A stretch of 64,000 bases of DNA from Siphonodentalium dalli (lineage: Eukaryota; Mollusca; Scaphopoda; Gadilida; Siphonodentaliidae), in NCBI GenBank assembly GCA_032622095.1, contig CP136062.1:144788351-144852350 (forward strand). Reading direction: 5' to 3'. The position numbers and the translations under genes are program-made. Of this stretch, positions 14,701 through 37,800 are shown piece after piece. Below the pieces are notes generated by a model that ran no database searches, had not been told where the DNA came from, and saw only the letters and a program-made list of their open reading frames with translations. Each line of letters starts with the position of its first letter. The stretch's first letter is position 1.

Positions 14701-17700
14701 GAATCTATTTTTAGTGTCGCATGCATTTTCCTCTTCATAGAGCTTTGCAGATGCGAATTATTCTTATTGAAAGCAACCAACACAAGGTTACACGCATCAT
14801 ACACAGCGGAATTAATCTACAATTCATGCATTCAGTTTTAGGGCTGTTGTTTTGTTTGGTCAACTTTCTCAGAAAAACAAAAACATGTCGAAATCTCGTT
14901 TTGTTTTCGGTTTGATGGATGACTAAATGAGTTAAAAATATATATTTTTTGAATATTAGGGTTAATTATACTATACTTATGTAAAATTATAATATATGCT
15001 AGCTTCTTAGTGTTGTTTATCAACTCTATGTGGTAATGTCAGTTAGAAGATGTCTGAAGTATGAATGTATGCCAGGCCATTTGTGTCAAAATGCAACAGT
15101 ATCACAATATATGATGCATCTGATATATTAGGGAATGTTGGATTATAGCTTATAATGTTATTTTGTGCGTAAATATAAATATGTTACAAAGTATCAGTTT
15201 TGAATGAGATATTGGTGAAATAGGGCAAACTAGACAGCGTCTTACATCCTTATGGTCCAGCTCACTTCATTGCCAACTTGGCTTCCCACACACAAAATAG
15301 TCCCAACAAGCAAATGGCCACATATTTGTGTTCAACTGGTGGAGGGTGCCTTGAACTCAATGGAGTTGTAGTTAAAACAGTGAGTTATTTGATAAAATGA
15401 AGGTCCCTCTCCTCGTCCTGGAATCATAATCTATAAAATGCCACAATAATTATATTGTTGTCCTTTATTAGTTTTGACTTCTGGTGATTGGGGTACTTTC
15501 GCTTATTTTCCGGTTAATTTTCTCAATAAAATATATGTTTTAAAACTATGGATGTGCTTCCAAAATTGTTTCAATCATAATCCCATTCCCTTGTGAAATT
15601 TCATGTAAATTGGAGTCATAGTCTTGCAATGGCTGGCATTCTTCGGAGTGAGGAGTATAACAACTCATTCGGCCACCTTTGTGATATCCTTAATAAGCTT
15701 AATTGATATTACCATTGATATCCCTAGATATATATACTTTCCCAGTCATAGAGAAAAGCGTGAGGGTCATTTCCTGAATAAAAGTAGGAATCTATCAAAA
15801 TTAGATCGTCTAGTTTGCGGTTATGGAAAAAATCTGTAAAATGAGAATCAGTTTAATTTGCTATGGGTTGGCTAGTTAGCCGTCCACTATTTGAAAACGT
15901 CATTGAATTTGTCCGATATGAGACTAGGAATTTATGGTTCTGTTCCGATTTCGGTAAAGTATGACTATGATTATTTATTAATAACTCATTCATATGATAT
16001 ATACAATTATATACACAGTGTAATAGTATAACATTCAATGAGCTATCGGGGACAGCATAACCAAGAAGGTTGTCTACCTGTCGTCTCCGTTGAAAAGTAA
16101 TATAACTATACATGTAATAATAATTTTAATTTATCTTGGTTTTGTCTTGTTAACATTAAACATTGGTATATAAATGTCTGTTTTTTAATAAATAATAGTA
16201 TAATTCGTCTGTCGTTCACCGTTCATCGCTCAGTTTGTGATATGGTTTGTAAAGTACAAGCATGTGGAATATGGATATGTGGATGAGGCCATACAGTATA
16301 TAACTATATGTAGTTGCGACAGTCATACCTGTATATGACACACATAATGAGTTTTCTATCTTGATTTATTTGCTTTCTACAGTGTGCGATCCGATACTGG
16401 GAGATGAGAATACTATGGCAAGTATAACGTTACCTAATTATACAATAAAAGTTGCAACGTTCACCTGAGTTAGCTTATTTTATTTCATGAGTGTCATTTT
16501 GTTACGTTTGGGCAGTAAAATATGTAATAGAAAACAACATCGCATATATATATATATATAGAGCCAAATTGTTAAATTATTGGTTTAGAAGCCCTTGGTT
16601 TCTGATTAGACAAAGACGATCCTATGTGTTCCGTATAAGATGTGATAACATCCATTGTTTTATTATCTTAATAACAGTAGAGATTCGACACGCAGTACCA
16701 TGGCGATATATGGAATTCAAGCGTTTTCCACCGAGTTCGTCCAGATGAATTCTTCATTAAACACGACTTTCAGTTCTTCCTGGATTTATCCAATACGTGA
16801 TTCTATGTCTGGCATTGATGATAACTGTTGAGATAAACACATTGAATGCGTATTATCCACGTCTGAGCTCTGTCTACCAATAACGCCAAAAATAGTTACC
16901 AACTTTACTAAATTACAATGGTCTATTTTTAATTTGGATGGGCATTCAGGAAGTTTAAGAATAATTTGTTGAGCAGTTTAACATTTCCTAATGGATATAG
17001 TCCTCATTGCTCTAATACAGAAAGGGTTGAATATTGCATATTGGCTTTACCGGATCGTGTATGTTCTGTAACGTGGAAGGGTAGGGGGTCTTAAATGATA
17101 TTTAAGACTGATAATTGATATAGGTCGAGCGGATTTATGACGTTCCCAACCTGTTACAAATTTAATAGAGCGCCTTAATTGACCATTCTTGGGTACTAGA
17201 TCCGGACTTGTCTTGAGTTCTTGTCGGGGCGTGATCAATCAACGTGACTAGATATGAAAATGAAATGCTCCAATTTATTGGATAACAATAACATGTCGAA
17301 TTGTAGTATCATATTCATAGGCCATTGGTATAAGTATTGTAGTTATTGCATCTGTTGGAGGTATGCCTCTGGATAGACTGGGCTTTCACTTGAGTCTTGG
17401 CTTGTTTATTTAATTAATCTCTGTAATTCATCACCTTTCTACTCTAGTCTAGCACCTTAGATTGTAATTCCGTATCACGGTCACCAACGTCTATTCAAAG
17501 ATTACTTCCGGTTGGCTGATCCCCAAATGTGGGTAGTAGTGGCTTAAATACTACTCCCCACAACTACCTACAAAATACCCACAAGTGAACGTGCAGTGCT
17601 ACCCACAAATCATACCTTACCTACAACTGCTAACTACAAGGTATTTTGACGAGCGCTGTTGACAGCGATGGGCGGGGCTACGAAGGAATCCGCCAATCGC

Positions 17701-20700
17701 GCAACAGTGCTCTCTGACATGTAAACAAATGAGGTGAATGAAGTGATGAAAACAATGAATAAATATCGCGATATAGCACGGATGGGTTATGAGATGATAC
17801 AAACATAGAAGTGATTTAATTTATGATATTTACGGACTAATATATATCTTGACGCGAATGAAGTGGACGAACTTTTACAAATGTACGGAAAGCCGCGAAT
17901 GTACCGATGAATGATACAAAGAAAAGTATGGAATGAATCAATGTTAAAACATGAGAAATACAATAATACGTAATGCATAATAACCAAAGAGAGTGCCTGT
18001 AGCTATGCTACATCACCCCCTCCTAAAGAAAACATCGGATCACCGGATCCGTTAACCTTAATCCAACAACTACCATAGTAAATTTAACCTTATGAAACTA
18101 TATAACAAACATTTGCAAGGTAAGTTATCAACAATATAGTCTTCTACTATTCTTCTGCTCTCCTCCGATTGGGCAAGCATAAGTCCAAGGGACCATCGTC
18201 CATGTCCTTGATGACCTCTTCAGATTCCTCGGTGGACGTACTGGCGTCTACTGTCTGTATTATCTTCTCTTCTGTATGAGTACTGGCCTCCGTACTCTGA
18301 ACCTGGTTCTTTGTCTGCGTCTCCTGATCCATCTTGGTAACCATCTCTGTCTCCGTCCCCTTATCAAGAACCCTCGTGGTTCTATCCTCCGTCTGGATTC
18401 CTCGATGTTGTCCTTCCTTGAGCTGAGGTGCACGCCTCCAGTGATCGATAAGCTCATATATTTTTCCATTAGGCAGCGTCACCCTCTCAATCCGGGTGAG
18501 ACCTTCGAAACCGTCTGGGACGAATCTTCGTCGATAATATTGCAGGTGCTCCCTCGCCTCTCTCAAACCTGCTCTGAATATTTCACCTCGGTGACTCTCA
18601 ATGTATTCCGAAGGTGCACCCATCAGAAAAAACCGTGGGTCAGCAGATAGCTGTCGCAGGTGGGTGATAGGATGTGGCAATTTAAGCATGCCAGCGATGT
18701 CCAGCGATCTCAGCCGATCGACTTTATAACCTGGCACATACTCTTCCACCGTGTTCATGGACGATTCCTTCGTTACCATAGCATCTGTCTGCATCTCTGA
18801 ATCCTTCACCTCTACCCCGTCCGTCTGCATCTCTGTATCCACTAGAGACTTCTTCACCTCTGACTCATCAGCCTGAACTTCCGAACCACAAACCACTAAC
18901 TCAGGCATCACTTCCGCCACTATTTCTGCTAGAATATCTTGATCTCCATAACGAACAATGGGTGAGGCCTCCTCGAATATGTCATCGGGGGGTAACTCGA
19001 GAACTGGTTCCACTGACAGCCAGTCAGCCGCCGGCAGATCGAATATATCACACCTGACTGTATCCTTGACTTTTGCTTTTTGAACATTATCACATCCTCT
19101 CATGACCTTGACCACTTTTGATTTCACTGTGGGAACTGACTCTCCTGATGAATGTCTCCTTTTTATATGGAGATCTAGATGCTCCCGTCGTCCAGCCTCA
19201 TACTTGCATGAATCACAATTGTATTTCTTCTCCTCATGTACCTCCCGTTCATGTCGATTTCGCCGTGTCTTGGTGTCAAAGACTTTGAAACAATCATGGC
19301 AGTAAAATCTGTCGTCTTTGAAGTTTCGATCCGCCATCTGAAGTGACAGAAATAGAGGACACTAAGTAATGGACATAGTCTACCATTCTCGGAGGTTTAC
19401 ATATTTTTATCTTTAATCTCGATCCTTACTTCTCGTGGTCACGCCCACAGGTACGAACCATCTCTTGACTTTGCCAGAGTAGGGCTTGAGACGGTCTATG
19501 TGAACCACTTTGGATAATTTCTTTGGACCTCTCTTTATACGAACTAAAACAGTTGACAATCTGTCGGTCACGATATAAGGGCCCTCAAATTTTGGAACTA
19601 GCTTCCTGGACAAGCCTTTACCCACACTTGTGACTCGCAGCAGCACTGCATCCCCCACATTCATTTCCTCTGTCTTTCGCACTTTAACATCGTAATTTCT
19701 CTTCTGCCTATTACTTGCGGCTTTCGTTCTCGCCCTCGCTACCTCATGTACTTTCAGAAACGTTTCCAACAGGTCCCCAACATATCTCGCTATTTTCTCA
19801 GACTCTCCGCTTTCTCGTTCACGCTCAAGGTAAGAGTACATGCAATCAATAGGAAGGTTCATTTCGCGACCAAGCATCATTAGACTCGGTGAGAAACCTG
19901 TGCTGTCGTGAACAGTTGATCGGTATGCCCACATGATCATAGGCAGCCAATCATCCCAGTTTTTCTGTGACCTTTCGATGTGTTTACGCAGCATCTCCTT
20001 TATCGATCTCATCATTCTCTCTGCTAAACCGTCACTCTGTGGATGAAAGGCAGTCGTCCTGGTCTTATCTATACTAAAAGTTTCACACAGAGACTGAAAC
20101 AGTTTACTGTCGAACTGTCGACCTTGGTCCGTATGAATCTGAAGTGGGACTCCCCATCGTGTTATATACTCTCTTGCCAAGACACCTACAACTGTTTCAG
20201 CTTCTTGGTTTGGCATAGGGAAAGCTTCCACCCAACGGGTGAAGTAGTCGACCACAACCAAGATATATCGGTTCCCATCATGTGACTTTGGCAATGGCCC
20301 AGTTATATCTATTCCTACTCTTTCCAGTGGAGCTCCCACCAAGTATTGTTGCATGAGCCCTGTCTTCTTAGGTGAAGGTCTCTGTTTCTGACATTCTGGA
20401 CATTGTTGCACGAAGATGTAGGCTGATGTATAGTACCCGGTCCAATAGAACCGAGCTCTCACTTGGTCTATTAGCCTATTCACTCCCATATGACCGCCGC
20501 CAGGGCTGCTATGAAGCATCTTGAGGGCTTCCTTTTGCCAGCACCCAGGTAGCACCAACTGCCAAACCTCCAAATCAGTATCTGGGTTTATCCACTTCCT
20601 GTAAAGGATTTCCTCTTTCATATGTAATCTGTCCCACTGAGCCCAATACGTTTTCACTTTACTGGAGTACTCAGATAGGTGCTTCCATCGAGGCTTTTCC

Positions 20701-23700
20701 TGGGATTCCTCTAAAAATTTGATGATGATGCTGATATCCTTGTCCTTGTGTTGGGCTTCTCGGATTTCTGTTTTACTTCTCGGGATAATCCATTGTAAGC
20801 TCACTGGTTCATCATTCGTCTCAGTTGTACTCGGTTCCATCGTCTTAACTTCAGCCACAGTCATTGCTGGTACATCTGACAGATCACATGGAGCTTCTTT
20901 CTCTAAATCTACCTTAGCCTGTTGTCTATCGCAGTGGTCACATTCTTCACACGGTCTCCTCGATAGCCCATCTGCATTATTATGAAGCCTTCCTGGTCTA
21001 TGCTCGATCTTAAAGTCATACATTTCCAATAAGTTTATCCATCGAGCAAGTTGGCCTTCTTGGTTCTTAAATCGATGGAGCCAGGTCAGTGCTCCGTGAT
21101 CACTTCTCACAAGGAACTTGGTGTTGAACAGGTATGTATGGAAGTGTTTAACTGATTCAACTACTGCCAGCAATTCCTTCCGTGTGATGCAGTAATTGCG
21201 TTCTGGTTTTGATAGCGTTCTACTAAAGTAGGCTATGGCATGCTCCCCATCATCAAATTTCTGCGTCAACACGGCCCCCGAACTATTATGACTCGCATCC
21301 GTGTCCAGGATAAAGGACTTCTGAAAATCCGGATATTTCAGGACAGCATCTTTCATTAATGCTTCTTTCAATTTCATGAATGCATCTTGGCATTCGTCGG
21401 ACCACACAAATGGGTTTTTCTTCTCCGTCAACTTGTGAAGTGGCTTGGCGATTTTGGCGAAGTTCTTTATGAACTTCCTATAATAGGAACACGTCCCTAA
21501 GAAACTCCGTACATCCTTCACATTTCTAAGTTGACCCCATGACTGTATGGCTTGGACATTTGCTGGGTCCGGCTCTACTCCTTTCTCCGACACTATGTGC
21601 CCAAGAAAATGGCATTTGTCTTGGAAAAGGTGGCATTTCTTGGGCGACACTTTAAGACCTGCATCACTAATCCTTTCCAACACCTCATCCAACCTTGAAC
21701 AATGCTCTTCAAAATTCTTTGAAAATACCAATACGTCATCTATATAGAGGACACAGGTGTGCCACTGCAACCCAGCCAACACCATCTCCATCATTCGCTC
21801 AAATGTCGCACCTGCATTGCAGAGGCCGAATGGCATAGACCGGAATTGATACTGCGAATTTGCTGTGATGTTAGATGTAACAAATGCCGTCTTAGGTCGG
21901 TCTTTCTCGGCCAGAGGAATCTGCCAATATCCAGCAACCAGATCAATCCCAGAGTAGTACTTAGACCCCCGCAATGCCTCTATACTTTCATCAATTCTGG
22001 GTAGAGGGTATGAATCCTTTACCGTCACATCATTGACCTTCCGGAAGTCTATACAAAATCGAATGCTGGTTGGTTTGCCATCTTCAGGCTTCCCTTTTCG
22101 AACTAGGACTACAGGGCTAGCCCAGCTTGACTTCGCTTCCTCTATCACCCCAGCTGCCAGCATTCGTTCTATTTCTTGCTCCCCCTGGCCTCGCAATGCA
22201 TATGGTACCCGGCGAGGTGGTTGCCTGATTGGTCTCGCATCTCCTGTCTCGATGGTATGTTCTACTAAATGGGTACGACCAAGGTCTTCTTTACTCTTTG
22301 AAAATATTTTTCTGTGTTTTATCAACAACTCTACAACCATTTTCTTCTGCACTCGGGGGCCTCGGTGGCTCAATCGGTTAGGGGTACAACTCCAAGCCGT
22401 TTCGCCTTCCAGCGCTGGCGATAAGGGTTCAAATCCACATGTTTCCACCGTGGACTTTGTAACTCGAAATCGTTATCTGGGAATGTTGTCAGTTACTTGC
22501 CGATGGCCGGTGGTTTGCCGCACATGGTCGACGAGTTTATCAGCCATCGAAATCACTGTTAGATTAGCCGTAAGTGTGCGGATTTCCTCCACCATTAAAA
22601 CTGGCAATGTCGTGATATGGCCTTAGTGGCTAAAGCGACATAAAACCCCAATCAATCAATCAATCAATCTTCTGCACTCCATTTAACTCCCCACATTGTT
22701 CCATTAGAATTTCCATATGTTCCGGCAAGCTTGGTGGTTCATGACCAGATATGTCAGTCTCTGTTATTCTGACCTCTTCAGTACTTGAAAATTCTTTGTG
22801 TTGTACTTGGGATATACAATGAGTCCTGATGAGTTCGCCTTCAGCTACATGTGTCTGTGCATATAGCTTTCTGGTCAGTGAACCCAGGTTCATTATCCGT
22901 ATTGGAACCACGCTATGGTTCGTGTCAAAGATACTGTGTGCTATCAAGAGTCCTTTGTCTGATAATCCCTGACTAGCTGTTGTTATCATGGCATGTCTCC
23001 CAACCTGATCTGCCTTCTCAATAACGGCCGCCACAACCATCTCCGATGCTGGAGGAATGATGATATCTTCCTGTAAAGTTAGCTTGAACAGAGTTTCTAT
23101 TTGGCTCTCCAATGAACATTTAAATGGCACTCCTTTCAGTTTGAGTACAGATGCTTTGAAGTCAAGCTCACACTCGTTTTGACTCAGAAAATCATATCCC
23201 AATATAGCAGGAGTATCAAGGTTGGCCACAATCATACGGCTATAACAATCAATCTGCCCAACTTGAATAGGAAAAGTGGCCAAACCACATGGCGTCACTT
23301 TCTCCCCATCAGCCATCTTGAGTAGGCAGTTGTTTTTAAGCAGCGTTGGCCTCAGGCTCCTGTCTAATTGGTCATATATCTTGGAGTGGAGTACAGACAC
23401 AGAGGCACCTGTATCAATAAGGCAATTTGTTTCAAAGCCACAAATGTTAACTTTCAAAAGTATCATTGGTTGCTGTTTCCTGACCCGCGGAAACAGCACA
23501 AATTAGTTTTCCGAAGTCTTATTCTCAGTTTCATTGGAATCCTGTCTTCTCATGTTATTTGCCCTCTTCATTTTTAAATCTCGCTGTTTCTTGAAGCACT
23601 TGTCTTCCGTATGGTTAGTACGTTTGCAATAATTGCAGTGTTTTCTTGGGTATCTATCTCTTCTCATAACGCCCTCTACCGCATCAGTCACGATATTTCT

Positions 23701-26700
23701 CAAATGTTCAGTCTCTTGTGGACTACTTGAACCTTCACTGTTTGATTCTATATCGTATTCATCAATTTGTCTTACTCTGTGTCGGCTGGCTGAGTGTCTC
23801 TTGTTCATACTCATTTGAAAAGCCTCATACTTGAGTGCTAGCGACAATGCTAGGTCAATGCTTTCTACTCCCGCACCTTGACAAATTGCCCACTCCATTT
23901 CGGAGTCTTGGAGCGCATCTCGAAAAGCCTTATATGCCAGACTATCACGTATTTCCATACTGGCAGCTGGGTATGCCATCCTCACAAGGCGTTTAATTTC
24001 CTGTGCTAGCTCTGGTAGACCCTCTCGTTCTCTTCTACGCCTGGCTCCCAGCTGAGCACGATACATTTCGCATTGATTTTTAGGCTCAAAGCGCGAAGTA
24101 AGCACAGCTAAAAGTTCTTCATAATCACCTAACTGGTATGGACTCAAGTCGGCCAACACCCCTCTTGCTGAGCCCTTCAGATGAATTCCCAGCTGTATTA
24201 GTTTCTCATTCTGTGTCCAATTATTTCCCTTTGCCACCAGGTTGAAATGGGCCATATAGTCTGTCCAGCTGCTTCTCCCATCATATACGTCGGGTCTATG
24301 CATATGGCTCTCTCTATTCAATTTCTGTTCATAAGTATTACGTGGATAGACAGTGTTTCTATCATTACTCTGATTCATCCTATCCGAAGATATAGCATGA
24401 TAATTTGCCTGCATTTCGGCCAAATCCCCATATGGCACATCTCTTTGGGACCTCGCTGTACGGTCCTGTTCACACATAGGATATCCTTCCCTGACCTGTG
24501 CTATGGGTTCTCCATAATGTGGCCTTGCTCCACAGCCATAATTTGACTGCATCAAATTATCTGACTGCTGTCTATGGGGTGTCATGTCTGGAGAATAACT
24601 ATCTCTTTCAACGTGTCGACCCGTATATATACTATAATCATCATTGTGGACAGGATACCTTCTGTATTCGCTTCCTGAATTGTCTTTAAAGCATTCAAAA
24701 TGATTGCTTTTCTCTCTACTATTTTCCACTCTATTCGGCCCGCCATGTGTGCTACAATGCATTCTATTGTCCTCTGGTGCCATCGTGGAACACCTCCTAT
24801 TATCATTCTCTGCAATATCTCTCTGTAACATAGTATTTTCTCTCCTCTGGAATTTGTCGGCGCTATTAGCCACTCCACCGCTACTAGCATTCCTCAATTC
24901 GCTGCTATCAGCCGTCCAATTTCCGCACTTCCTGTTTATATGTGAAAGTTCATGGCGGTCATTTTGAACATCCTCCCGGAATTCGGGATCATAATATTGC
25001 GAATTATTCGCCAGCGAGCGTCTGTCATGACTTGTCTTTTTGTGAAGAGGATCTTCGAGTTCCACTGCAGCCGGGACGTGTCTTCTATACCCTGGACTTG
25101 ACACAACACCCCCGAGGTGAGTGTAGGTTACCGACGTCGAATTTTTTTTTTCTCCCCAATGGCAATATTTTGTATTGACATTTGAATGACAATATCCATT
25201 GGTGTTTTCTGTGCATGATAAATCATTAGTGGCATTGAATTTTGGGGAATGCGATCTGTTATCTCTATGCGTTATGTCCGTAACTCCGTTCTTTTCTTGG
25301 CCGAATCTGATGTTTTGGTCATTTATGTGACCACCATCAAATGACCGATCATGCCTCTGATTTTGAACCTGATTCCGGTTTGCTTGGACTCGATTAATAT
25401 CGTGCCCGGTGTTCATTACAATGAAATAAGTCATTCTAGCATCACCACCAGATACATCTTGTTGTCCCCTGTGGTCTCTCATTCTGCGTTCATGAGAGAC
25501 ATGACTTTCAAAATTATCGACACCTCGCCTTCCTTGACAACTTTCGTTTCTCATTCTATCTGAGCCATTGTACATGTTAACAAAGCTCTGCCCTTGTACA
25601 GCATCGCCCTTGCATACATTGTGACTGTGGATTACATTCACCTCTCTCTCATTCTCAAATCTCCGGCCTCTCAATTCTCTACTATCAAATCTATCAGCCG
25701 CTAGCTCTCGTCTTTCTCTATCACCATGTTCCCTACTTTCTCTCTCTCGATTTCTGCTATGCAAACCTCTGTGAACTTCCATCTGCATTTCTGCCTCATT
25801 CTGTCTTGCGTAAGTAGTGTTCTCGTCATGCTCATCGCTACTTGCATCAACCTCTCTTTCTCGTGCACCAATCTCAACCGTGTTCTCTTCTACCACAGAT
25901 GCATTCAGACCATTGTGATTATTGGTGTCAGTTCGTTCTCTCATCTGACATCTCTCCATCTCAAGTAACCTATTCTCTAACTCTAACGCTCTCTGTCGTT
26001 CTTTCTCCAATGTCTGTAATACTTTCTCGAGCTCTGACTTACTCACTGTTTCTGTCTCTATCGCTCTCTCTTTCGCCTTTCTTTCAATTTGCTCTGTTCC
26101 CGCATCTGAATTCACTGACACATCTCTGCGTTTCTTATTTCGGGGTTTAGTCATTTTCCCAAAATGTGTGGAGGGGTACCCAGGAATAAATCTGTGCTCT
26201 CCGATAATCTTTGACTTGATTTTGTCTGGTTTACAAACTAAAATCCCAGCCGCATGCCACCACTTTTGTAACGTGGAAGGGTAGGGGGTCTTAAATGATA
26301 TTTAAGACTGATAATTGATATAGGTCGAGCGGATTTATGACGTTCCCAACCTGTTACAAATTTAATAGAGCGCCTTAATCGACTATTCTTGGGTACTAGA
26401 TCCGGACTTGTCTTGAGTTCTTGTCGGGGCGTGATCAATCAACGTGACTAGATATGAAAATGAAATGCTCCAATTTATTGGATAACAATAACATGTCGAA
26501 TTGTAGTATCATATTCATAGGCCATTGGTATAAGTATTGTAGTTATTGCATCTGTTGGAGGTATGCCTCTGGATAGACTGGGCGTTCACTTGAGTCTTGG
26601 CTTGTTTATTTAATTAATCTCTGTAATTCATCACCTTTCTACTCTAGTCTAGCACCTTAGATTGTAATTCCGTATCACGGCCACCAACGTCTATTCAAAG

Positions 26701-28825
26701 ATTACTTCCGGTTGACTGATCCCCAAATGTGGGTAGTAGTGGCTTAAATACTACTCCCCACAACTACCTACAAAATACCCACAAGTGAACGTGCAGTGCT
26801 ACCCACAAATCATACCTTACCTACAACTGCTAACTACAAGGTATTTTGACGAGCGCTGTTGACAGCGATGGGCGGGGCTACGAAGGAATCCGCCAATCGC
26901 GCAACAGTGCTCTCTGACATGTAAACAAATGAGGTGAATGAAGTGATGAAAACAATGAATAAATATCGCGATATCGTGCTATTAATTACATGAAATGTGT
27001 TATTTATACATAGCACGGATGGGTTATGAGATGATACAAACATAGAAGTGATTTAATTTATGATATTTACGGACTAATGTATATTTTGACGCGAATGAAG
27101 TGGACGAACTTTTACAAATGTACGGAAAGCCGCGAATGTACCGATGAATGATACAAAGAAAAGTATGGAATGAATCAATGTTAAAACATGAGAAATACAA
27201 TAATACGTAATGCATAATAACCAAAGAGAGTGCCTGTAGCTATGCTACAGTTCCATGCCATCACGATGAGTTTTTGCTGTATGTATTTCAGTATGAAGTG
27301 CCAGAGTCAGTTGACCTATTCAAGGAACACCTACTTCCACAGGCTGATATCGCTACTCCAAACGGATACGAACTTGGGTAGGTATATTTAACAAGTCAGG
27401 ATATTATAGATATCACATCCTATCCGTGTCAATTATTTTGGAGACACTGACTCAGTATGAGTGATAATTGCTCCATTATCCGTTAATAAATTATCATTTT
27501 CTGATCGTATGGTCATGTATCGATCGGTACTGCGCACTGGGATGTCCCTGAACTCAGATCAGCATTGAACTATCCTCAAAACTTAATCTGATTGGTGTAT
27601 ATTATGTTTAGCCCTTCAATATTGAACATCCCAGACACACGACTTCAAAGAGCTCTTTCGGTACGTGCAATTCACGCAATTTCATGTGGTACGCCGGATT
27701 AATTTCCCAATTTAGCCGGTATTCGGGATTCAACACGAAATGCTGTTAAGTAGATTTTATAGCGTAAAAAATTACACAATTTTTTGTATTATGTTCCAGC
27801 CCAAATGACATATTCTGATCTAATACTTATTGATATATTGTTGTTATGGACACCACTTCAACTGTGTGAAATACATAACATGGTACGCTGTTAATTGGTA
27901 ATAAGTGTACATGGGAGTGGGGGTAACATTGTATGTCATGATAAGTTGTATACTCACGGAGCAGCATGAATGGAACAATATTCGAATGTAACTGGTTTTG
28001 TCCATTAATTTCGTCTGACGGTATAGCCATTATGGTGCAAAAACGTCCATCCATGTATCTCAGTCATCTGAGATCGGATGAGAAAGATCTATGGTATTCA
28101 TGATTACGGTGGGGTGAAAGATATCCAAATACAACAGGTTTTGTTCATTCATCGCATTAGGGAACCTCATCAAATTGTGTTGCACTTGTTGAAAGGAGTG
28201 TCACTTTCAGCTGTAACATTATGCATTGAGATGCTCTGTATATTTATAGTGCATACTGTTCGGCTACTATATAGTGAGTAGCCTGTCATTTGTACAAAAA
28301 ATGGGTTTCTTAAAAAATTTGGGGGATTTTTGGCAACATATTGTTTTCTTAAAGTCCATGTACTGGAGAAATTGGAAACCAATATTGACAAGCTTCTTGT
28401 CGCTTAGTTGCCTCAACAATGGTGTTACTATAGCAACAGTATGTGTTTTCTGGAAAATGAACACATATGAAGCATCAAAGTTGGCTCATATGTATATCAC
28501 ATGAATGTAAGTCACTTTGGAAATGATCCCAATCTGGAAAATGTATACCGTTGCCATGGCCACCATTTTGGTGAAAACACCTGTTTTTGCCAAAATCTAG
28601 CATTTGTGGAAAACTGTTCATTGTGCATCTATTTTTATTGGACATGTATCGGACCATATAACTATTAAAACATATACCTTTTGCATATGGGTACATTCAA
28701 AACAAAAAACCCTTTATGTAATGTGTGTATCGCCTTTTTGGGTGGAATTTGTGTACATTGTTTGATTTGAAAAAATAAAATTGGTTTAGACAAAACAATG
28801 CTTGGTGATTCTGATTATATATGTG

Positions 28826-31800: not shown

Positions 31801-34800
31801 CTGAGGGCTACAAGAAAATAACAAACCGATACTATCAGCTGATACTATAAGATTCAAATTATAATGTAACGAGATTGTGATGATGAACTGAATTAATTTA
31901 ACGTGAAATTCTGTTTAGGTTCATTCAGATTGCGCCAATGCGATGCATGCATCCAATACTAACTATACCAAACTCTGCGACACGGCAATTGCTTTCAATG
32001 CACTCCCCCTATATTTGTTGCAGAAGACATATACCTTATATGGAGAATCTTACGTCACTTGTCCCGTTTACGTCGGATGTGTAGTGAGTAATGTCTCCGG
32101 TGAAGTCGGCTCTGTGTAAATTTATTCATTTAAATCCGGCTCCGGTTGGCAAAATAAATGTTCTCTTGTTGCTTGTGGGATAAGATATGGAAGTGTGTGG
32201 TTTGTTTTTATCAATTAGATGTTGTGTATTAATAAAAGTTGGGCACATCGTGCATATAGAGTGGATAATTGCAAGGAAGATTTTTGTGGGCGAATTCGTA
32301 ACCATCGCCAGATGACATTGCAGAAATCGCGTTGCGGGCCCGTCTGATTGTTGTCGTATCAGTCGTGTCGGCACAAACTGAATGGCCATTATTCATATAA
32401 TTTAAGGCCTACATCAGTACCATCGGGAAGAGTTTTAGCCCATATAATTTACAACATGCATGATGTAGACATTTAACATCATACAGACAAATTAATGTGT
32501 AGAGGATTTCACATCATGTAAATATTCCTCACTGTACAATACTAGTATGAATCTGACATCAAGTAAAATATCAGACAACAAAACCCACCCTACACCGCTG
32601 TTAAGTGGTAACATTTATGTTCATGCCAGTTTACTTTTATATTTACCTGTCATCATTCCGTACATCTGCAACTGGTTCAAGCAACTGTTCAGCAGTACTC
32701 TGTCTTAATGGTTCATGGCAGATACCTCTGATGGTACCGGTATTGACGCTGAAAGCAAATCAGTATCAATAGAAAATACTTATTTATAGATGCAGTGTGT
32801 ATGAACACTGAAAGTTGTAGTATTACACATGATATACCTTGTTGTAAAATATGCATCAACCCATCAACATGTGAACTATCAGAGACGACAACCTAACACG
32901 AAGGTTCTAAACAGTAATATTTCATGTTTGGTTCGAACATATTATTTATTGAAATTGTGAAATTTTCAGCCCTGTTCAGCTTTAGATTAAGGGATTCAAA
33001 TGTATTTTGTATGTGGCTTCTTTATCAGCCTGACATCAGAGACAACAAACCACCATACAACAAGGTTGTAGATGGTACATATATTGTAACATTAAAATGT
33101 CATGTTCATGTCATATACATGTTCTTTATATTTACCTGTCATCAGTCTGTGTATCTCCAACCGGTTCAAGCAACTGATCAGCTGTACTTTGTGTTGGTCC
33201 AGAGGTATAAGTATTGATGCTGAAAGCAAATCAGTAAAATAGAAAATATCTGTATATGTATATGCATGTAGTGTGTATATTACTAAAAGTTGTATTATTA
33301 CAAATGTTAATTTCTATAAATAAGAACTAGATACCGGTACATGTAGCCTTGTTGTGCAAATATTTATCTGTATGGTGCAAGGTAAATTCAGTCAAAGGTA
33401 CATAAACATGTTTGCATTGCAGTTTGTGAATATATATTTCCAAGATGAATATTTAAAGGCACGTGAGGCCTTAGTTGTCGAAAATATTCATATTTGTTCC
33501 AATCACCGTAAACAGAAAAACATTAAAACGCATACAGTTTCGTTCATATATACCATGACCATCGCGTAAACAGCATGTTATCATAAAGGCCTACTATATT
33601 TTACCTAAGCAAGAGCCTGATTGTGTTACAGAAGACAGCACAATGCTACTGGCTAATCGCACAAATGACATAAACGCTCTTTATTACTTCCATATCAGGA
33701 GAACGCTCTTTATGTTTACCATCATAATATAAACAAACACCAGAAAAGTAACTTTTGATGCTTTTGTTTACATAACAATGGTCAAACATATGACAATAAC
33801 ATACTGTTTACGTGATATTTCTTATTTGTATCCGGACAAAGTCTGTCTACATTTTGATGTTCTTTCTGTTTGTGGGGGTTTTTGACGGGTGGAAATATTT
33901 TCACAGGATACCCACCGCCAAGGCCAACCGTACCTTTAATTTTTCAACTGACATACAAATATTCATAATTAGTTTAATAATTTTATTAAAATGGATTACT
34001 ATGGGCTCAATATGTATGCGTTATATCTTCAGATATCTTGAGGAAATTATAAAGGTTATGAATTTATAAAGTTGATAAATTTATAAAAAAAAATAATTTT
34101 AAAAAACCTGAAAGAAATGGTATAAACATAAAATATCAAATACGAATACATCAATGAACCAGAATACAAATTGAAGAACACTGTAAAATATAAAAATAAT
34201 TTAAAATTAAAAATATCCTGAACGAACAAGTACAAGAACATGATTCGCCTTTACCTAGACATATCCAGAGTGTTGTATATGTCATAAACTTGATTCTTGT
34301 TCATCACATCAGATAGATTAAAACTCAAGTCATCGACAAGAAATAAATCGCTAATTCCGACACATTAGCGTTATTCATCTGAATTTCTGGGTTTGCCTTG
34401 GTGGACAGAGGTGACAGAATTTTCCTTGAAAATTTGTGGACATACTGGCTGTTGACACATTGGCGTTCAGAATTACCGATGCAGCTCGCACAGAAACATG
34501 ACAAATGCATAGCGTCTAAGGTGTATGTTTTGTCTGGAATATTTAGCAGCTGATGGAACTTCCTAGTACCTTGCACAGTTTTGACATCTGTTTCTGGTCG
34601 TTCTCGGTTAATATCACATTCCTTGACTAACAGAAAAGTCCGCTTAACAAACCTTTCATTTAAGCAATAAGTTCTGGTGGAAAATTGGTACATGTCATTG
34701 GCGTTGTTGACTACTACCTGATTTCCAATGATGGCCATATCTATCATTTTGTTCAATTGTCCGATTTCGGCATCGCAACAGCATTTACCATGTTCTGATC

Positions 34801-37800
34801 CAAAGTAATTTCTGTTCACTGCCTTACCTTCTAATGACAAATCAGCAAATGGGCCCTTTGATTTAAACTGAGAACTACAACCATCACTCCAGATGACCCA
34901 CTGATGGTCATGTAGAGATCTTCCAATCAAGGACTCGACTTCGGAAGAGACAAGTTGCATGTAGTAGTTGACGCTGTGGTAATCATGTGAATTGTCGTCT
35001 GTAAGGACAATTGTACTCAGTTTTACTTGACCATGTTCGGTATCGAAATAAGAATCAATTGGTATCATTGTAACCTGTAGATTTTCATAAAATGCTGCCT
35101 TGATCTCATTTTGATATTTAATTTCACGATTTTTGGCGAAATCAACCACTTGCAGAATGACGTTCTTCGGCAAATTTTCTTTGAAATCTGCAAACTGGCA
35201 CCCTTGCCACTTGGCGGTGAACATGTGAGTGGGAAAATTGTAGCTAACAGTTGGGTGGTCAATATCAATAATGTGAATTCTGTCATCAGTTCTTTCTTAC
35301 TACCAGATTTCACTTTCAACACTCCTCTTCTTCCCATAAGCACAATCAGCTCTCTCCCATCTCGTCCACGTCATCTTTGTAGCATCTGGTGTTTCCTTGT
35401 AGAAACTCTCTAAATTCTACTTATGCTTGTCCTGTCCGCATTTCTTGCAAGTCCCACTGATACATTCTGGATTATCAGATTTTGGACAAAGAATTATTTC
35501 AAGAATGTCATTTTCGTTAAGTTTTTTGAGCTTTAGATTTTTAGTGTGTCGGCTCAATGTTAATAATTTGAACCGTATATTTATGCAATAGGCACACACA
35601 CAGTATTCTCGATGTTTGATTGAAAGTTTTCTGACCTCACGAGGCCTCAGCAAGGCAAGTTTTGAATAACTTAATTGGATACCCTTTTCCCTCACAAATT
35701 TCTTATGTGCTGCCTTCATACTGATCTGCATCAGAAAACCAGGTCCTTTCTTTGTGGCATAACGCCATTGTGGAGTTACCTGTGACACATCTTCTTCCTT
35801 ATAGAAGTTTATCACCTCATCATGAAATTTCTTTTTCTTTTTGGATTAATGTAAGGCTGGCTTCTACCTCTGAATTGTGCAGCTTTTTTCGCAATGGATT
35901 TGTAAGCAATTACAGCAGGACTTTCAGTCTTTTTTGAATCCTTGGATGATACAGGCAACTAAATGAAGAAATGAGCATAAAGGGTAGTGAGTGGATGAAT
36001 GAGGAAATAGTAGAGACATTTAGAATAGCTTGAAAAATATACTAGGCCTTCAACAATGAAGGCACTATATATGTACATGTATAGCTTTTCTTCACAATTT
36101 AGATGATGTACGTAGGTAGCTGGATATGAATAGAAGAGAGAGTGAGAAAGAGAGAGAGAAAGAGAGAGAGTGAAGAATGAGTATGAAAGGAGAATATTAA
36201 ACAAAGTTTGACCACACAATATACTAGTATTAAATAAGATGTATCATGAACCCAACCGATCATTTCCCCAATGTAATCCATATGCATTCTGTTGATCTTA
36301 TTACTAGTATCTGAACATTCCCATTCAAATTCTGAATGAAAATCCCATGTTTTGCAATTTTATTTTCCTAACACCCCTCCAAAATAAATATAAGATAATT
36401 CCAATGTAAATGTTAAATCTGAATTGGAGAGTTAATTCAGTCAAGAAATGGCTACTAGTAAGGAGTTTGAATTTGCTAAGAGTTATATCACAGTTCATCG
36501 AATTGAACATTTAGGTCAGAAAAAAACTCTTCTCCGAGAGTTGAGAGGTTAATAGTATAAAACGCCTACATGTTCAATGTAAATTGCAAAACATATAAAG
36601 TATGGTCGCTGTTGAATCTGTATTGGAAATGAAACAGAAGTTGCTATTCGATGGCCCGTTCAGCTCTAATTATGGAACATAAAATGTGTATACTTGTAAA
36701 AATGAAATATATGATTACATCTTTATTGTTGTCGCCAGTACAATCCATGGTAGCAGCCCTTTTCTGATTAATTTTTTCGAGGATGATTTTAAATCTGTCA
36801 GTCCTCTTTGGCATTGCTGCACGTGCTTTTGAAACATCATTCCATAATGACTTCTTTGATGTATAAGGGGGCTCTTCCTGATTTGGTTCTTGTATGGTAC
36901 TAGTACTTTTCCTTGTTTTCTTTTTTCTTTCCCGATCCTTCGTTCGCTACCAAGCCTTTTTCTGCGACGACATATTCAACCTCTGTTTCTGCTTCATTCG
37001 CCTATTATATTCCATTTTCTTATCCAAACTATGACGTGTTGATGCACCCAGTCGCTTTACTCTTGTATTACATGTAGACTTGACTCGGTCGCAGACAATC
37101 TCATGCATTATTTCTTTTCTTTCTCTGTTTGGAAAGACAAAATTTTGCATTGGACGACACACCTTATCTGTTACATGTATGTTTATGTCCTGTGGACTTT
37201 CAGAAGAGAGATGTGACCGGTATCTTTGTAGATGTAAGAGTGTCATAAGAGAACTGTGTAACAGTATCCTCAATGCCATCAATAATTAAGAAATGGATGT
37301 TGATTTGCTTGTGTTCCATAGAGTATGGATGCAAGTTGGTCTGACATTTTGTGTGGAGCGCAAAAGTGTTCCACACATAAAAATGTCAGACCAACTTGCA
37401 TCCATACGATATGGAACGCAACGAAATCAACATCCGTTACTTATATTTACACTCAACCAAGTCAACTGGCAGATTAAAAGAGTTTTAAGCGCCCATTTCC
37501 AACGTTATTATCGTGGCTCGGTGCAAGTTGCGTCTACACAAAAATGGATGCAAGTCGGGGTCATCATGCGACGTCATGTGACGTAATGTCGACCAACCAA
37601 CGTCTTGCATTCATGTTACACAATGCGAATGCATGTGTGAGTGTAAATATTTATTAGTGATTTAGTTATTATATATTGCACTGGAAACATCTTCCTTACA
37701 TGTATATTGAATTAAATCATGAAATTGTGCATGTAAATTATATATTGAACTGCTATAAGGCAAATATTTTTACATCCCCTCCCAACCCTGCTTTAGTTCC

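Follow-up and report, generated by a model that had tools for sequence, protein, structure and literature searches.

The window analysed here is a stretch of 64,000 nucleotides from contig CP136062.1 of the scaphopod mollusc Siphonodentalium dalli. It holds a minus-strand Ty3/Gypsy retrotransposon with long terminal repeats (LTRs) at 26267-27249 and 17067-18012, and a 4-bp target duplication, GTTC, outside both. Between pol and the 3′ LTR, a place that in related elements is often taken by an envelope gene, the element carries a third open reading frame (ORF), here called ORF3, with two C2H2 zinc fingers. In this genome one Ty3/Gypsy clade has retained ORF3 as an accessory gene. The features are as follows (RT, reverse transcriptase; SINE, short interspersed element; handles such as L012 name related loci).

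26267..27249, minus strand: 5′ LTR, 983 bp, TG..CA (direct repeat and ends)
23503..26154, minus strand: gag ORF, 883 residues, one CCHC knuckle near the C-terminus (CX2CX4HX4C, read by eye)
22660..23499, minus strand: protease part of pol, open frame of 279 residues (Pfam gag-asp_proteas, E 2.3e-7)
22353..22665, minus strand: SINE splitting pol (young repeat family; absent from L012-L014)
19413..22352, minus strand: RT, RNase H and integrase part of pol (Pfam RVT_1, RT_RNaseH, rve, Integrase_H2C2)
19338..19360, minus strand: 3′ splice-site-like tract ctctatttctgtcacttCAG, directly before the ORF3 ATG (also in five other ORF3 families)
18147..19337, minus strand: ORF3, 396 residues, ATG to stop
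19140..19307, minus strand: two C2H2 fingers, ORF3 residues 11-66 (pattern, and PDB and Pfam comparisons)
18384..18722, minus strand: conserved central domain, ORF3 residues 206-318 (13-row alignment; no known family matched)
18246..18836, minus strand: five LC8-type QT motifs (MQT, MQT, IQT, TQT, IQT), residues 168-364 (motif pattern)
18177..18191, minus strand: PLDLC motif, residues 383-387, CtBP-type PxDLS (motif pattern)
18013..18024, minus strand: polypurine tract AGGAGGGGGTGA, abutting the 3′ LTR (G-rich on the forward strand)
17067..18012, minus strand: 3′ LTR, 946 bp (direct repeat and ends)
17063..17066, with its other copy at 27250-27253, no strand: target-site duplication GTTC (LTR flanks)

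The TG..CA LTRs, the short target duplication and the polypurine tract are those of a Ty3/Gypsy element, and the Pfam matches, ordered by their coordinates, give the Ty3/Gypsy pol order of protease, RT, RNase H and integrase. The gag ORF has no gag match in Pfam. The named proteins matched by pol residues 20-520 include those of Pinctada (57% identity), Holothuria (55%) and Ruditapes (54%). Because the two LTRs are nearly identical (943 of 951 aligned bases, plus one 37-nt indel), the insertion is recent. A previous sequence-only reading of this DNA had called the element young and its finger ORF intact. The youth of the element stands, and ORF3 is intact, but the window copy is a broken element, because the SINE lies between the protease and RT frames (the listed RT-RNase H-integrase ORF begins within it, at 22448). 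In L012-L014 protease and RT matches continue in one frame, with a 9-base overlap of the two parts found in the window, consistent with the SINE having inserted into the window copy and duplicated its target. The SINE itself, about 313 bp long, belongs to a very young family: its 40 scored matches in the genome, one of which is the window copy, all have 98-100% identity, from 1768 first-look candidates.

A protein family with conserved modules

The open frame of ORF3 runs for 404 codons, compared with a longest of 164 in 1000 base shuffles of the region, and this rules out a chance ORF. The coordinates agree with the sequence-only reading, which had placed a 396-codon sense-strand ORF between pol (ending at 19413) and the polypurine tract, inside the LTRs. 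The same reading described two perfect C2H2 fingers, and both do fit C-x2-C-x12-H-x4-H. Pfam scores them below its gathering cut-offs (best E 0.0043); residues 11-63 match DNA-binding two-finger proteins in PDB (ZFAT, E 3.2e-5), and a profile of seven ORF3 families gives a best finger match there of E 2.1e-8. The claim that the protein has no membrane segment holds as well: the highest Kyte-Doolittle mean over 19 residues is 1.29 in the window protein and 0.43-1.19 in six relatives, so by this measure there is no hydrophobic segment in the window ORF3 (no signal-peptide program was run). As there is also no env family among the Pfam matches of ORF3 or its relatives, an env identity is ruled out.

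Outside the fingers we find nothing convincing in Pfam, or in PDB among the matches listed. In the protein collection ORF3 alone gave 4833 candidates, none at E ≤ 1, and the alignment of seven families gave 7996, of which none reached E ≤ 0.1; the method relies on shared five-residue words and may therefore overlook remote homologues. The genome contigs collection gave no match to the central domain. The sequence-only reading had pointed to structure prediction and search with residues 1-70 and 200-305; the search succeeds for the fingers at residues 11-63, and for the central domain there is no family match, and its single-sequence fold prediction has a mean pLDDT (predicted local distance difference test) of 37.6 and is unusable. 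Two other matches were judged to be chance, one to a PHROG family annotated as replication initiation (E 0.0076) and a weak likeness to gag (E 0.27). A further locus, L041, was excluded as a family member: it is an ordinary-looking many-finger ORF matched through its fingers alone.

Viral contigs, searched with ORF3, pol, a pol alignment and a central-domain alignment, returned only one distant pol (L001, 39%), and no ORF3 is seen among the listed ORFs of that contig. L001 is a Gypsy-like IMG/VR contig of 9,984 bp that encodes the same gag stretch at both ends, which suggests a circular form.

We aligned seven ORF3 families (the window, L017, L022, L025, L034, L036 and L038), which are 24-35% identical to the window protein. 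The order of modules is kept: finger or fingers, a low-complexity stretch that in most families contains QT motifs, the central domain, and a C-terminal [PA]LDL[STC] motif. The ligands of the first finger are present in all seven families, and this finger is conserved beyond its metal ligands; a second finger can be recognized by eye in six. The central domain, of about 100 residues, has 15 invariant columns over 13 aligned rows, with the consensus ..EQLSADPRFFFIGAPSEYMEGH..YKRRF.P.GYLCIKK.E....G..Y.L.E.W.RDP. The C-terminal motif lies within the last 20 residues in six of the seven families, a number reached by none of 5000 shuffle sets, as PLDL in five families and as ALDLT in L017. The motif [TVIMC]QT occurs 15 times in total, where the shuffle mean is 2.2 and again 0 of 5000 sets reach the observed value; the counts are 5 in the window, 4 in L025, 3 in L022, 2 in L038 and 1 in L036 (5 of 7 families). 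One protein can have as many as two PLDL motifs along with several QT motifs.

Distribution, selection and possible exchange among copies

We searched the host assembly (G000; 2.23 Gb, 9 contigs), and as the genome matches are the best-scored candidates, totals are lower bounds. There are at least 103 ORF3 matches. The window ORF3 has seven further full-length matches at 90-98% identity (one with an inner stop) and one copy in two pieces; the remaining matches are distant or partial. When pol matches are sorted by identity, 21 of the 24 at 50% or more have a same-strand ORF3 match no more than 6 kb downstream (the 24 include the window and a three-copy tandem array), compared with none of 21 more distant ones for a window-type ORF3 within the same distance (14 at 41-44%, and 7 with an RT piece at 51-55% and a weaker integrase piece). 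This comparison covers 45 of 53 pol rows, the other 8 being second pieces of the same elements, and 65 of 103 ORF3 rows; the other 38 were read by eye, and none is near the distant pol rows. Among the three exceptions, the one at C8:183671974 is accompanied by a damaged L038-type ORF3 (L042), and for the other two the nearest ORF3 is at 11.4 and 18.7 kb, where an intervening insertion is possible. A polypurine-like tract followed by TGTA is found in 14 of 15 printed relatives, the exception being L031.

The sequence-only reading had named two outcomes that would make ORF3 a mere passenger, namely that other full copies lack it, or that it aligns to a unique host gene at this locus only. Neither is observed: ORF3 accompanies the 21 close pol rows, with one more broken copy, and it is not a unique host locus. 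A single captured host gene is ruled out by the many copies and by the co-occurrence with the pol clade.

Three loci in the same genome show local rearrangement. At G000:C6:61714657-61733932 (L012, L013) the element is present as three head-to-tail copies that repeat every 9,050 bp exactly, and the pol of each copy has one internal TAA; this array probably arose through LTR recombination or local duplication. At G000:C7:159691847-159700401 six matches to the central domain lie on one strand, about 1.6-1.7 kb apart, so that part of ORF3 has been amplified locally in tandem. And at G000:C9:209149147-209151060 (L031) the part from finger to central domain is duplicated inside one 703-codon open frame.

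As a measure of constraint we use the ratio of nonsynonymous to synonymous divergence (dN/dS) from Nei-Gojobori counts on pairs of ORF3 copies, with no likelihood test and with Fisher p-values computed from rounded site numbers. For the window against L012, L013 and L014, dN/dS is 0.19-0.21 (dS 0.069-0.077), with p = 3e-5 for L012 and 4e-6 for L014; the L012 and L013 comparisons are not independent because these are near-identical array copies. Against L011 it is 0.32 (p = 0.004), so that four of six window pairs fall at 0.19-0.32. Elsewhere in the family L017/L031 gives 0.20, at a dS of 1.1 over 205 codons, L038/L039 0.37, L036/L037 0.49, L025-L027 0.63, L026-L027 0.71, and L025/L026 0.99 on 9 changes. 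In the same window pairs with L012-L014 the pol ratio is 0.46-0.57, and that of gag (L012, L013) 0.79. Judged by these counts, ORF3 is under purifying selection in several copy pairs, as the sequence-only reading had thought worth checking.

The copies are also mosaic. Between the window and L012 or L014 most gag-pol pieces are 98-100% identical, the ORF3 pieces 94-98% (lowest at 18850-19249), the gag-side part of the LTR about 86%, and the other part of the LTR 97-98%. Synonymous divergence in ORF3 is about five to seven times that in pol for the window and L012-L014 pairs. L010, on the other hand, is near 99% identical to the window over most ORF3 and LTR pieces. In the copies compared, the form of ORF3 (396 or 392 residues) and the form of the LTR co-vary, which hints at exchange between subfamilies, although the sample is small and the two divergent blocks are separated. 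A joint transfer of ORF3 with the entire LTR as a single 3′ unit is ruled out, since divergence in the LTR is confined to its gag-side part. The two ORF3 forms have the same finger residues (window compared with L012 and L014) even though the gag-side LTR differs by about 14%, and this gives no support for the fingers following LTR sequence.

Expression, function and known systems

The ORF3 ATG of the window comes immediately after ctctatttctgtcacttCAG, which ends in a splice-acceptor-like CAG. An AG directly precedes the ATG in six of eight families looked at; AG|ATG after a pyrimidine-rich tract is also present in F2 (L022-L024), F3 (L025, L026, L040), L029, L036 and L038. In L017 and L031 (one family) the tract and AG are present and the ATG is missing there, so an upstream exon would have to supply it; in L034 we see no acceptor-like site by inspection. 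Near the 5′ end the highest-scoring donor-like site, at 26820, reaches 5.9 bits with a weight matrix. From these sites we infer that ORF3 is expressed by splicing: it would be translated from a spliced subgenomic mRNA, its 3′ exon beginning at the CAG before the ATG, like retroviral env.

From the combination of fingers, QT motifs and a CtBP-type motif we infer an accessory nuclear adaptor, LC8-oligomerised and CtBP-docking, that tunes transcription or silencing; we give this reading about an even chance, its partners being deduced from motifs. The sequence-only reading had proposed a nuclear regulatory protein, captured or evolved by the element, that perhaps controls its LTR, targets integration or counters silencing. 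What has held up is a gene of the element, in the env position, with a regulator-like make-up, in a copy that is not intact as a whole; the three suggested roles stay conjectural. In the mechanism that we propose, the product would enter the nucleus, host LC8 would dimerise or oligomerise it through the QT motifs, the fingers would touch DNA (or nascent RNA), and the C-terminal motif would dock host CtBP. The net effect would most likely be control of transcription at the LTRs of the element itself or at host silencing loci. ORF3 would then be a self-limiting or chromatin-tuning regulator and not an envelope, with self-repression and counter-silencing both compatible with the sequence. The parts of this mechanism have precedents. 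PLDLS-like motifs dock CtBP, and CtBP-bound repressors recruit histone deacetylase (PMC2749851); multiple QT motifs in the zinc-finger factor ASCIZ bind LC8 and tune ASCIZ activity (PMC5963919); and the transposon-silencing Panoramix complex of flies is dimerised by LC8 (PMC7861614).

Several observations weigh against the adaptor. The CtBP-type and LC8-type motifs are short; L034 has no C-terminal [PA]LDL[STC], L017 and L034 have no QT motif, and the window PLDLC, the L011 SLDLC and the L017 ALDLT depart from PLDLS. Only four of seven families pass the strict pattern C-x2-C-x12-H-x3-5-H for the second finger, which is missing in L038, and two C2H2 fingers alone as a rule bind DNA weakly. The donor-like sites near the 5′ end are modest in score. 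As for selection, dN/dS is 0.46 for window-L015 (L015 has a stop), 0.85 on 12 changes for window-L010, and 0.32 to 1.25 for pairs in family 2, a spread that is expected if there is constraint during replication and neutral decay of insertions afterwards. A stronger version of the adaptor, which we think doubtful, makes ORF3 the first seen member of a class of retrotransposon-encoded chromatin regulators: an E1A-like adaptor joining fingers, LC8 oligomerisation and CtBP docking, made from a spliced mRNA and clade-wide, that would set its own transcription or blunt silencing.

The same anatomy can be read in other ways. An unlikely alternative is an RNA-binding factor for nuclear export or RNA fate, like Cer1 CERV or Rev, whose fingers would carry unspliced genomic RNA out of the nucleus or to Gag. 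C2H2 fingers are able to bind RNA, and with an acceptor-like site before ORF3 both spliced and unspliced RNA would need handling. CERV has the same position, a spliced mRNA and a nuclear product that is required for genomic RNA export (PMC10309623); yet the C-terminal motif of ORF3 suggests corepressor docking, and no RNA-export family is among its Pfam matches (CERV was compared by description). E1A ties up CtBP; in a similar way ORF3 could act as a decoy, sequestering host CtBP and LC8 so that the element is less effectively silenced, with the fingers serving folding or localisation. The docking-type motif at the extreme C-terminus and the repeated PLDL and QT motifs speak for a decoy, as does the requirement of piRNA-guided silencing in Drosophila for LC8 through two Panoramix motifs; but clear Panoramix homologues are not known outside insects (PMC7861614), and a decoy could dispense with fingers, whereas the first finger is conserved beyond its ligands. 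We regard the decoy as rather improbable. A role after reverse transcription, in which ORF3 would accompany the integration complex, use LC8 for microtubule transport and choose the chromatin for integration through its fingers or CtBP, has in its favor the QT motifs of five families and the original discovery of LC8 as a part of dynein. LC8 is, however, a dimerising hub in many dynein-independent complexes (PMC7861614), and two of the seven families have no QT motif, so we hold this role to be quite improbable. Finally, that ORF3 is a chance passenger or a captured host gene with no role for the element seems very improbable: no homologue in the protein collection traces its origin and some pairs have dN/dS near 1, but the co-occurrence with pol across the clade, the low ratios in most window pairs, and the same place before the polypurine tract in nearly all printed relatives go against it.

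Non-env accessory ORFs are already known from bdelloid rotifers, Cer1, Retand and the MDG1 group (PMC5408684, PMC10309623, PMC11963269, PMC11952523). The ORF3s of the bdelloid Juno and Vesta elements are, like ours, clade-specific, non-env and located between pol and the 3′ LTR; they are typically expressed from spliced messages, where we have an acceptor-like site. They are described as DEDDy exonucleases and GDSL esterases, the word zinc being absent from the main text, and as showing no significant departure from neutrality, unlike the several pairs with low ratios found here (PMC5408684). Our Pfam scans give no exonuclease or esterase domain for ORF3. CERV of C. elegans shares a 3′ ORF with an acceptor-like site (TTTCAG, on a spliced mRNA), and is itself nuclear with a candidate cysteine finger; it differs in that this finger is possibly of C4 type and in having exons in the gag frame, and its description shows no C2H2 pair, PLDL or QT motifs (PMC10309623). 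The plant Retand aORF with TRP28 is placed between pol and the 3′ LTR, and has predicted DNA binding and a proposed regulatory role; it is antisense, whereas ORF3 is sense with C2H2 fingers (PMC11963269). The Pfam scan of ORF3 has no TRP28 (PF04195) match. The sORF2 of the Drosophila MDG1 group is likewise a non-env accessory ORF of Metaviridae, and is a short transmembrane fusogen-like protein (PMC11952523), whereas ORF3 has no hydrophobic segment; the sORF2/FAST-like proteins are of 63-107 residues with a transmembrane segment, and ORF3, at 396 residues, falls outside that class.

Two host or viral systems resemble ORF3 in its parts. ASCIZ/ATMIN has the same order of N-terminal fingers followed by a disordered region rich in LC8 QT motifs, but it is a host gene with four fingers predicted in the fly protein, and we liken the two by module order only (PMC5963919). 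None of the 60 PDB matches listed for ORF3 carries an ASCIZ name (no direct comparison with ASCIZ was made). CtBP-docking repressors and adenovirus E1A share a PLDLS-like short motif, where the core in ORF3 is PLDLS, PLDLT, PLDLC or ALDLT, a likeness of sequence only (PMC2749851).

The sequence-only reading knew of no described element with this layout; we likewise found no Gypsy element with a C2H2 ORF3, for a coverage short on subscription papers and with Repbase and Dfam outside its scope, but other non-env ORF3s are known (PMC5408684, PMC10309623). What appears to be new is thus a C2H2 ORF3 with CtBP- and LC8-type motifs, from a protein family unmatched in the collections searched. The ORF3 family offers numerous natural variants, and its delimited central domain has no known relative. 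Retroviruses have dedicated regulators such as Tat, Rev and Tas. A membrane-free, clade-wide ORF3 makes testable whether plain retrotransposons encode their own transcription regulators.

A second zinc-finger ORF type and a neighbouring ORF pair

Downstream of a 43% pol at C9:108408225 lies a different 533-codon open frame (L043) with two C2H2-like fingers, below the Pfam cut-off (E 0.0077). It follows a TTTTTGCAG site, and an acceptor-like string AAATCTTTTTATTTTTGCAG precedes ACGGC. Neither PxDL nor PxNL was found in this ORF, and QT occurs once, at the TTTTTGCAG site. The L043 ORF has at least 87 genome matches. Read by eye, four of the 14 pol rows at 41-44% are followed downstream by an ORF of this type (C9:108408225, C1:206926949, C2:128237790 and C2:115827152); none is present at another distant-pol locus, L044 (C1:50648950). 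The sole link between the two ORF3 types is a finger-region match of E 2e-4, within one 3-kb locus. If a second Gypsy group does carry a different two-finger ORF3, zinc-finger ORF3s would be a recurrent strategy.

Elsewhere in the window, at 34325-35815 on the minus strand, there are two neighbouring ORFs of 299 and 132 residues. No Pfam family reaches its cut-off for the 299-residue ORF, and the two may be pieces of one gene or transposon.
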